A stretch of DNA of 64,000 bases from Candidatus Aminicenantota bacterium (GTDB lineage: Bacteria; Acidobacteriota; Aminicenantia; Aminicenantales; Aminicenantaceae): contig WVXO01000031.1 in assembly GCA_011773465.1 (NCBI GenBank), positions 123,392 to 187,391 on the forward strand, read 5' to 3'. This document shows positions 37,987 through 42,179 of this stretch, piece after piece (positions within the stretch are counted from its first letter, which is position 1; each line of letters begins with the position of its first letter). The notes beneath the pieces were generated by a model that worked only from the letters and a program-made list of their open reading frames with translations, had not been told where the DNA came from and ran no database searches. Both the position numbers and the translations under genes were made by a program.

Positions 37987-39453
37987 ATGTTAGATTTAAC
38001 AAAGAATGAGACCAAGCTCGAAAGAGCGGTAGAACAGGTCAGGAAGCGCAAAATCATTATCCCCACCTTCAAACAGATGAAAAATCCAAAACTAATTCCA
38101 AGAAAGATAAAAGAAAAACTTAAAGGGATCGCTCTAGGCGGTATAAATCCTTACAACCTGTTCAGAATTACCTGGAAGAATGAGCCAGTTCCCAAAGGAG
38201 GACTCTTCGGGGATGTCAACTACATGGAGATTCCGAGAGAATTGACAGGCGTGGAAGCCCGAATTATTGCTCTGGTCGGTAAATGGTTCCCTACTGGCTC
38301 TCATAAGGTCGGAGCTACCTTTGGATGCCTGGTTCCGAGACTTGCAACAGGACAATTTGATCCCACCTATTAAAAAGCAGTCTGGCCATCTACCGGGAAT
38401 TACTGTCGCGGTGGCGCATACGTCGCCACTCTCCTCGGATGTAATTCTATCGCGATTCTGCCCGAGGAAATGAGCAAAGAACGCTTTGAGTGGCTTTCGT
38501 CTGTAGCAGGTGAGGTGATCAAAATCCCTGGTTGCGAGAGCAACGTCAAAGAAATTTTTGATAAATGTTGGGAGCTTCGTAAAAAAAGAGAAGATATCGT
38601 GGTTTTCAACCAGTTTGACGAATTCGGCAACTATCTCTGGCACTATGCTGTCACAGGAAAAGCAGCATTGGAGGTGCTCAGAAAGGCAATGTCCGCTAAA
38701 GATCGTTTCACGGGCCTTATCGCGTCTTCTGGCTCCGCAGGAACAATATCAGGTTGCGGAGATTACCTTAAGGAAAACTTCCCTGAAAGCAAAATCGCCG
38801 TTGGAGAAGCAGTTCAGTGTCCCACACTCCTTCTCAATGGTTTTGGGGGCCATCGAATCGAGGGAATCGGAGACAAACACGTGCCCTGGATTCATAACGT
38901 CCGTAATACTGATATGGTCATAGCCGTAGATGACAACGATTGCCTCAATTTGATCAGACTTTGCAACGAACCTCCTGGAAAAGCTTTTCTAAAGAAACAG
39001 GGTCTATCCGAAAGCGCAATCAACGACCTCTCTCTTATGGGAATTTCAAGCGCTGCCAATTTATTGGCTGCCATAAAATTCTCCAAGTACTTTGAACTCA
39101 CCTCTAGAGACTTGATCCTAACGGTTTTCACAGATTCCATGGACCTATATGAAAGCCGTCTGGAAGAACTTCGGGCACAATACGGAAAATACTCCGAGCT
39201 GGAGGCTGTAAAAGACTACAACCGCTCTCTCTTGGCTTTAAACATTGATCATATTCTCGAACTCAATTACTACGATAGGAAACGGATTCACAGCCTCAAA
39301 TACTTTACCTGGATAGAGCAGCAGGGACGAAATGTGAATGAATTGAATGCCCAGTGGTATGATTATCCTGATTACTGGAAGAACATTCAATCAAGAGAAG
39401 ACAACATAGACAAGTTGATAGGGGAATTCAACGAAAAAACAGGGCTCCTCTGA
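37987..39453 (+). pseudogene. PLP-dependent cysteine-synthase-like enzyme interrupted by a single in-frame TAA (38371-38373)
   Basis: 37987-38373 and 38470-39453 are in the same frame; readthrough gives ...[45 protein letters not shown]..., a continuous family-like sequence. Confidence 0.8.
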
Positions 39454-39641: not shown

Positions 39642-42179
39642 ATGGGAATTGAATATTCGATCAAAGCCTGCCAGATGTTAGGGGAGCACTTCCGAAGTCA
39701 AAAGATTTTTCGTCCTCAGTTCATCAAGCGCTACGATCCTGGCGCTGAGCTTTCTTATGAAATAAAAGGCGTGGCTCCGGCACGGACAGGCCGGATTAAG
39801 TTAGAAGTGGAAAAGTTTGTCGGAGGCGGATATGCTGGCCAGGTCTACAAGGTAAAGGCTTTATCCGTTGAAGCTCCTGAAGGGCCGCTTGAAGGCCTTG
39901 ATGTGGGTCATTCCTATGCCATGAAAATTTTCATCACGCCCACAGGCTTGGCAAAATTGTTCCGCAACTTCATCTATGCTATTGCCTTTCAAGGACCATT
40001 TTCGTTCCATGTCAATCCTGCTGCGGTCAGGGCAGGCGCATTATGGCAGAAGTTTATACGGCGTGGGGCAAGGATCAGAATCGGCTCTGAAGAGGCGGTC
40101 GTAGACATATTGGCCACCTTCCTTGATTCGGCACTCGGGAGCTGCGGAGAAATCAGTGAGTGGGTAGAAGGGCGAATGTGGAGGTTCGAAGCTGATGACA
40201 ATCTGGATGCCAGGCTGAGATGGAAAGTCGGAGATCCAGACGGCGAGCTGGGTTCTATTGAGTATCGCGCTAAACGAACCTTCTTAAAACGCCTTGTGCA
40301 ACTGATGCATGAAATGGGAGCTTTTGAGCTCGCCCGTCAGTACGAATGGTGGACCTGCAAGAGCCAACCCAATGCCCTCAAGCGGATCGCCAGTGATCCT
40401 GATCCTGCTGAAGGGTATGTCGCTGTAGATTTCCGGGCAGGTTTAGCTCTTCTCCCTTTTATTCCGATGAGTCCGGCCGATTTCAAGCTTATTTGCAAAG
40501 GGATTGCCCGGGCCAGCTTTGTCCAGTTCGACCGCGGAAACATAGACAAGCTCCAGAGTTTTGTGAAGACTAACTCTGAGGCTTTTGCCGGCATGCACGA
40601 AGCTATGGAGGAACTTAAGGAAACAGAAAAGCTTTACCGCGATTCCTTACCTGATATCACCCATCATCATTTTAAATTGATTTACAGCTCTAGACTGTGG
40701 TCATCAATCTTGAAAAGCAGCATAAAAGGCTGGAAAATTCGTAATGCCATCGATGAGAAGACCTCAAACCAGCTGCATAAAAAAAGATTCGCAACCTTAA
40801 TTTTTTACTTTTTGGGACTCATCCCCTTTTTGGGGAATTTTTTGCGCAAGCTATGGGGACGAGAGGATTACCGTAAGCATTATGGGCGCCTGCTGACAAG
40901 TTTAGATTATTTCCGCCGTGCTGTGCGAGCCCGCATTGCTGAAATCCTTATCAACTGGCACCGCGGAGGCCGTGTCGATGAGAAACGCGCCCAGAAGATG
41001 ATTGAGCATCCCGCTAGATTTTTCGGACACTTGCCCCTTTCTGTTTTTCCAGCAAAGGTGCACCGCTTTTTCTCTGATCGACGTTTCTTTGTGAAGTCAT
41101 TGGATTATATTTTTATCAGACCCTTCCGTCTATACTTTAAAGCCGAAGCTCGAGAACGATGGCTGCGCGAGATAGTCTCCCGCGGGCAAAAAAGCGGCAT
41201 GCTGAACAAGCAAGAAGCAGAACACATCGAATCTCAGATAAAGGAGCCCTTCATACAGAAGTATCTCAAAAGCCTTGCTGTCCATGTTTGTACAATTCCG
41301 GTAACCCAGATTGTTTCAGTCGCTGTGGCCTTTATCTATATCAAATTGCATCCAGAGCTTTCATGGCAACAGGCAACGTTACACGCAGGCATAATCCTGG
41401 GGCTTTTCCAGGTAACGCCTGTCTCTCCTGGCTCAATTGTCCGAGGACTGTATGTATCCTTTCTTATTTTCCGCGAGCGAAACTTCAAGGACTACAACAT
41501 TGCTTTTTCCTTGAGTTTCCTCAAATACATCGGTTATCTTGCTTTTCCGATCCAGATGGCTTACCGCTACCCGGAACTTGCCCGTTTCATGGCCGGCCAC
41601 TGGGCGACAGGAGCTGTGCATATTGTACCTGTTTTCGGGGAGAGAGGAGCGCTCCTGGAACATGTCATTTTTGATCTTTTTTACAACTATCCCCTGAATA
41701 TCCGCCGACGAATTCGCCAACGCAGGGAGTTCCGCGCTGCTTTGAAGCCAAGATCCTGGCATGTCCCCTTATGCATGCTTGCAGGCGCTCTTGTGCTGGC
41801 GCTTGCCGACGTTGTTTATTTCAATTTGACCGGGCGCATACCCACATTAGGAGATATTTGGTGGCTGGCTATATTGGTACCTGTTTTTGCAGCTGCAGCG
41901 GTGGCTGCTTTTGCTGGCGGAGCCTCTCTTTCGAGGCGAATGAAAATGGGTGTGCTATGCGGAGCCCTGCTCGGTTTTCTTTATGCAGCTTCTAACACTC
42001 TCCTGGACAGTTTCTTGGCTCAAGAAGGAGGAGAGCTGTTTGCATCTCTACATCTGTTGGGCCAGATTGGACTGACGGCGCTCTGGAGAATTTTTTTATT
42101 CACGATTTTGGCCATAATAGGAGTATTTATAGCCGAAACAAGACCATTAAAACCAACGTCATCTGTTTCTTCTCGTTAA
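39642..42179 (+). CDS. Large protein: N-terminal kinase-like region plus C-terminal multi-TM region, function unknown
   Basis: Gly-rich loop-like VEKFVGGGYAGQVYKVKA, YAMKIF lysine, DFG-like VAVDFRAG; several hydrophobic TM segments from about residue 540. Confidence 0.7.
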   Translation: MGIEYSIKACQMLGEHFRSQKIFRPQFIKRYDPGAELSYEIKGVAPARTGRIKLEVEKFVGGGYAGQVYKVKALSVEAPEGPLEGLDVGHSYAMKIFITPTGLAKLFRNFIYAIAFQGPFSFHVNPAAVRAGALWQKFIRRGARIRIGSEEAVVDILATFLDSALGSCGEISEWVEGRMWRFEADDNLDARLRWKVGDPDGELGSIEYRAKRTFLKRLVQLMHEMGAFELARQYEWWTCKSQPNALKRIASDPDPAEGYVAVDFRAGLALLPFIPMSPADFKLICKGIARASFVQFDRGNIDKLQSFVKTNSEAFAGMHEAMEELKETEKLYRDSLPDITHHHFKLIYSSRLWSSILKSSIKGWKIRNAIDEKTSNQLHKKRFATLIFYFLGLIPFLGNFLRKLWGREDYRKHYGRLLTSLDYFRRAVRARIAEILINWHRGGRVDEKRAQKMIEHPARFFGHLPLSVFPAKVHRFFSDRRFFVKSLDYIFIRPFRLYFKAEARERWLREIVSRGQKSGMLNKQEAEHIESQIKEPFIQKYLKSLAVHVCTIPVTQIVSVAVAFIYIKLHPELSWQQATLHAGIILGLFQVTPVSPGSIVRGLYVSFLIFRERNFKDYNIAFSLSFLKYIGYLAFPIQMAYRYPELARFMAGHWATGAVHIVPVFGERGALLEHVIFDLFYNYPLNIRRRIRQRREFRAALKPRSWHVPLCMLAGALVLALADVVYFNLTGRIPTLGDIWWLAILVPVFAAAAVAAFAGGASLSRRMKMGVLCGALLGFLYAASNTLLDSFLAQEGGELFASLHLLGQIGLTALWRIFLFTILAIIGVFIAETRPLKPTSSVSSR

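Follow-up and report, generated by a model that had tools for sequence, protein, structure and literature searches.

The 64,000-nucleotide stretch of DNA that we analysed (hereafter the window) carries, at 39642..42179 on the + strand, a gene whose 845-aa product joins a kinase-like domain to a polytopic membrane domain. As judged from sequence comparisons, this protein represents an undescribed family that is conserved along its full length and is not in any family library searched here. Its probable role, by a link drawn from genome context alone, is in the handling or control of membrane lipids. Our preferred reading, held tentatively and at somewhat less than an even chance, combines conserved residues with predicted structure: the product would be an integral-membrane lipid-handling protein in which an ATP-binding kinase fold serves to move, modify or regulate the lipids of the membrane. 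The open reading frame is intact, with an ATG start, no internal stops and full-length homologues, and its start is supported because the homologues align from residue 1. All features of the gene described below lie on the + strand.

The 845-aa protein matched nothing in Pfam (no family even at E 1), NCBIfam, PHROGs or the PDB sequences, the family profile had no match to the PDB sequences, and we found no description of the family in the literature; the statement of the earlier, sequence-only reading that no described family could be assigned holds throughout these comparisons. Scanning a single genome for each species gave 124 loci encoding relatives with ~46-82% identity, and nearly all of the 80 relatives kept from these loci are full length. 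They belong to the Aminicenantes, Planctomycetota (Phycisphaerae, Sedimentisphaerales and others), Desulfobacterales, Latescibacterota, Fibrobacterota (Chitinivibrionales, Chitinispirillaceae), SAR324 and Gemmatimonadota, and identity between phyla is ~50% along the full length. The phyletic profile, which had been proposed earlier as a check, thus spans many phyla: the gene is carried by 25 of the 60 close relatives of the window's genome, by 44 of the 142 genomes of the class and by only 3 of 297 Desulfobacterota genomes, and the last figure makes the distribution patchy, most of the genomes surveyed being MAGs. In a quick maximum-likelihood tree, whose outgroup is distant and whose base contains several unresolved forks, the Planctomycetota lineages are basal, the other phyla are nested among them and the Aminicenantes appear in at least two places, which suggests that the gene was transferred out of planctomycetes. 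A plasmid collection contained no match to the family, so plasmid carriage is unsupported.

Profile searches extended the family to a superfamily, with further relatives in Acidobacteriota and Planctomycetota that keep both halves and are ~21-24% identical to the window protein. The distant members from Acidobacteriota include proteins of 683 aa (L109) and 537 aa (L113), among others, and those from Planctomycetota fall at 515-608, 745-761 and 1216-1221 aa. The residues G61, G63, K95, A128, G177, G226, Q233, N244, D263, G267, F296, D297, L325, G631, P663, G666 and E673 are invariant in 35 of the 35 aligned members, and R601 is kept in 34 of them. The label "chimeric", given to the protein in the sequence-only reading, is therefore misleading, since the two-part architecture is ancient and common to the whole superfamily. 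The two planctomycete members of 1216-1221 aa (L154:5132-8782 and L155:6485-10150) have an extra C-terminal part with more TM segments and, by inspection, a possible SGNH-hydrolase-like stretch.

According to the predicted structure, the N-terminal half has a protein-kinase fold. The AF2 model of the whole protein, built from the 76-sequence alignment, has a pLDDT of 84, and all matches among the 50 listed by Foldseek are protein kinases (GSK3B, CK2, CDK8 and others), the best one with E ~1e-3 and a probability of ~1.0; the low TM-scores are partly explained by the length of the query (845 aa), of which only one domain is aligned. The AF2 secondary structure and the Foldseek match place the kinase-like domain at residues ~45-335 (39774..40646). 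Earlier, a predicted N-terminal fold unlike that of kinases had been named as an outcome that would count against the proposal; both AF2 and Foldseek gave a kinase-like one, and together with the conserved ATP- and Mg-binding residues they support the union of a divergent kinase-like domain with a polytopic membrane domain.

The motifs on which the sequence-only reading had relied are all present, with EKFVGGGYAGQVYKVKA at residues ~57-73, AMKIF at 93-97, ISEWVEGRMW at ~171-180, CKSQPNALKRI at 239-249, VAVDFRAG at 260-267 and PVSPGSIVRGLYVSFL at 593-608. Residues G61-G63, A65-Y69, K95, K240-N244, D263 and G267 are invariant in 76 homologues and, on this sequence conservation, the resemblances to known motifs are not due to chance. 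Conservation and an hhalign alignment to Pkinase define the Gly-rich loop FVGGGYAGQVY (residues 59-69, 39816..39848). K95 in AMKIF, the beta-3 (VAIK-type) lysine (39924..39926), is invariant in all aligned sequences; CKSQPN (residues 239-244, 40356..40373) is the catalytic-loop equivalent, with an invariant N244; and DFRAG (residues 263-267, 40428..40442), in which D263 and G267 are invariant, contains the DFG-type putative metal-binding Asp. In the AF2 model, N244 stands directly before beta strand 245-248 and D263 follows strand 259-261, matching the catalytic-loop Asn and the DFG Asp of kinases, within an active-site stretch (residues 231-300) of moderate confidence (pLDDT 65-85).

Two hallmarks of protein kinases are missing. 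No Asp precedes N244 in any of the 35 members, which have CKSQP or other non-acidic residues there, so the earlier remark that no HRD aspartate is evident is confirmed for every aligned member. Across the aligned homologues, helix 126-146 contains no conserved Glu in the role of the alpha-C Glu that pairs with the beta-3 Lys. The superfamily profile matched the Pkinase profile locally (hhalign, E 4.7e-6), from the Gly loop to beta-3 only, and one distant member scored E 0.17 against Pkinase (PF00069) in Pfam, below the cut-off. Compared with PF00069, the family shares the kinase-type fold, the Gly-rich loop, the beta-3 Lys, the catalytic-loop Asn and the DFG-type Asp; it differs in having no HRD Asp, conserved alpha-C Glu or Pfam match, in a C-lobe that is seemingly shortened and in the direct fusion of the kinase-like part to a polytopic membrane domain.

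A helical linker, assigned from AF2 helices and family-averaged hydropathy, follows at residues ~336-535 (40647..41246) and contains one hydrophobic segment near residue 392. The family-averaged hydropathy has ~8 further peaks past residue 550, which define the polytopic membrane domain at residues ~536-838 (41247..42155). Its conserved residues include R601, Q638, R648, E673 and H674. Together with the motifs SPGSxxRG (residues 595-602; SPGSIVRG in the window protein, 41424..41447) and FGExGALLEH (residues 665-674; FGERGALLEH, 41634..41663, with G666 and E673 invariant superfamily-wide), they put charged residues within the membrane or close to it. Modelled alone, the C-terminal half reached a pLDDT of 86.7, and Foldseek found no match to this model in the PDB under E 0.2; as far as the model goes, the membrane domain is without a match to any solved fold. 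A viral origin of this fold was rejected after BFVD gave no viral match.

The main clue to function, out of reach of the sequence-only reading, is the linkage of the gene to pgpA and pgsA. The conservation of neighbours, also suggested earlier as a check, is seen in one phylum: of 34 Planctomycetota loci, 26 have pgpA, whose identity was confirmed by PF04608, in the vicinity of the gene, and neither pgpA nor pgsA is near it in the 46 loci outside Planctomycetota. In 22 of the 34, pgpA immediately precedes the gene in the same orientation, mostly <50 bp away. In four other loci (L068, L094, L098 and L103) it is found, together with pgsA, at most 5 kb downstream and in the opposite orientation; L075 has pgsA alone near the gene (PF01066 confirmed there). 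Fourteen planctomycete genomes were checked, and since 13 have a single pgpA (one has none), a chance neighbour in several arrangements is unlikely; the pgpA-linked loci are related by descent and so are not independent events. Ten of them also have, a few genes downstream, uppS- and cdsA-like genes identified by sequence inspection.

The remaining surroundings are more varied. One Aminicenantes locus has a PAP2 phosphatase gene downstream, and in an acidobacterium the gene for the 683-aa relative begins 10 bp after the end of an MMPL-family transporter gene (L109:1701-4445), with PhoU-like (DUF47) and PiT phosphate-transporter genes following, by inspection. In two planctomycetes (L163:1359-7951 and L156), a cluster of type III PKS, acyl-AMP ligase, FAD enzyme and ICMT genes adjoins short members, and the other short members have mixed, heterogeneous neighbours. 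A conserved ~255-aa protein without a Pfam match is encoded, usually directly downstream, in L038 (4545-5324), L055 (4664-5431) and 12 other planctomycete loci, and is followed by a ~155-aa membrane protein, likewise without a Pfam match. A functional link through the phosphomannomutase/GDP-mannose genes found in Aminicenantes and Desulfobacterales was not retained, as genes of this kind are commonplace and the association with them is weaker than with pgpA.

In the mechanism that we favour, the kinase-like domain would lie on the cytosolic face and bind ATP, and the membrane domain would bind an anionic or otherwise phosphate-bearing lipid, for which the gene neighbourhood makes PG or its precursors the best guess. 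ATP binding or slow hydrolysis would then drive or gate lipid movement or modification, rather than protein phosphorylation. That all the residues for binding ATP and Mg are kept (Gly loop, K95, N244 and D263) argues for ATP binding, and the missing HRD Asp speaks against phosphorylation of proteins in the ordinary way; combined with the lipid neighbourhood and the conserved polar membrane domain, these make ATP-dependent or ATP-gated lipid handling the best-supported reading. The mode proposed for UbiB/COQ8 offers a precedent for lipid handling by a kinase fold, as described in the parts of PMC8346625 and PMC7263595 compared here. What counts against a lipid role is that the pgpA link is not found outside Planctomycetota and that most short members have heterogeneous neighbours. 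The 845-aa protein is not a replacement for PgpA, since 57 of 60 relatives have PgpA, with or without the gene.

Several other explanations have to be weighed against ATP-driven or ATP-gated lipid handling. The protein could be an active lipid (small-molecule) kinase, in which the membrane domain would hold a lipid and the kinase-like domain would phosphorylate it with ATP, with diacylglycerol, polyprenol, PG or a phenolic lipid as candidate substrates and an unusual catalytic residue, for example D297 or Q233, taking the place of the HRD Asp. K95, N244, D263, Q233 and D297 are indeed invariant in all 35 members, and the neighbouring lipid-phosphate phosphatases PgpA and PAP2 act on the reverse type of reaction; however, no member has an Asp at the catalytic-base position and no evidence points to a substrate, and we regard such an activity as rather unlikely. 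The missing HRD Asp and alpha-C Glu fit a fusion between a regulatory pseudokinase and a transporter or enzyme, in which the kinase-like part would sense ATP or bind partners and control the membrane part; a possible source of signals is the ~26 Pkinase-domain matches of the window's genome. A precedent is MviN of Mycobacterium tuberculosis, a MurJ flippase with a pseudokinase domain of the ActPs3 family that, in the text of PMC12599244 compared here, has lost ATP and Mg binding. By that account, a single chain carries both a kinase-like domain and a polytopic, lipid-linked membrane domain in each of the two proteins, but the order is reversed (the kinase-like part is N-terminal in the 845-aa protein), the membrane domain here is not MurJ-like by Pfam or Foldseek, and the ATP- and metal-binding residues lost in MviN are all invariant in the 845-aa family, which a pure scaffold need not keep; a regulatory role of this kind is, in our estimate, unlikely. 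An even less probable explanation is a kinase-like signalling protein without any lipid role, in which the membrane domain would be a receptor and the pgpA neighbourhood an inherited accident of planctomycete gene order. The confinement of the pgpA link to Planctomycetota would fit this, as would the recurrent phosphomannomutase and HIT protein neighbours, which are not lipid-specific, but the linkage survives orientation changes and spans deep branches, and the membrane domain has conserved charged residues and a mean column identity of 48%, against 52% for the whole protein.

The suggestion of the sequence-only reading that the protein might be a UbiB/ABC1-like ATPase, with an LPG-synthase-like membrane half, found no support, and we consider a divergent UbiB/ABC1 member with LPG-synthase-type helices very improbable. 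The stretch GQVYKVKA...YAMKI is superficially like the ABC1 loop GQVHCAWL...VAVKVQRP, but there is no Pfam match to ABC1/UbiB (PF03109), hhalign gave a probability of 6% to an ABC1 profile made from only four sequences, residues 1-60 lack the KxGQ motif, the nucleotide loop is GGG instead of Ala-rich, and no UbiB/COQ8 protein is among the 50 Foldseek matches listed. UbiB/COQ8/ABC1 proteins resemble the 845-aa protein in a kinase fold without demonstrated protein-kinase activity, in membrane association and in lipid context, according to the same parts of PMC8346625 and PMC7263595; they differ in having a short C-terminal anchor, compared with the large multi-helix membrane domain here. LPG synthase TM/UPF0104 (PF03706) was likewise rejected for the membrane half (no Pfam match, an hhalign probability of 0.1% and nothing in Foldseek under E 0.2), while sharing a polytopic membrane region, a P-G containing loop and a likely lipid substrate. 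The pseudokinase groups ActPs1-3, GLW, CP1, DYD and DLHK differ in motif patterns and taxa, going by their descriptions in the portion of PMC12599244 compared, which does not mention planctomycetes among the bacterial pseudokinase families reviewed.

The family is large, widespread and conserved along its full length, yet missing from the libraries searched here. UbiB/COQ8 and MviN are, in the parts of the cited sources used here, cases in which a kinase fold serves membrane-lipid biology and not signalling. If the lipid link is true, the 845-aa family would join these few known cases as a new one, with the ATP site kept and the HRD Asp gone, and would give a handle on planctomycete membrane biogenesis. 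It is possible, on the doubtful side, that it represents a novel kind of membrane-lipid machine, whose HRD-less kinase-fold ATP site powers or gates a new-fold membrane domain acting on PG or related lipids, patchy across many phyla and most diverse and basal in Planctomycetota. The conserved ATP and membrane residues open the way to direct mutational tests.

In the window's own genome, pgpA is on a different contig from the 845-aa gene, and at least 26 Pkinase-domain matches in 2.6 Mb represent a high number of eukaryotic-like kinases. Downstream of the gene, a SAM methyltransferase gene is accompanied by two genes for M16-type peptidases, the latter named by sequence inspection. Upstream are phosphomannomutase and mannose-1-phosphate guanylyltransferase genes, also named by inspection, and a PLP-dependent enzyme gene (PALP match) at window positions 37987-39453. 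This last gene is split into ORFs of 128 aa and 327 aa, compared with a single 488-aa ORF in the relatives L025, L029, L030 and L031, and the split is either an assembly frameshift or the mark of a decayed gene.
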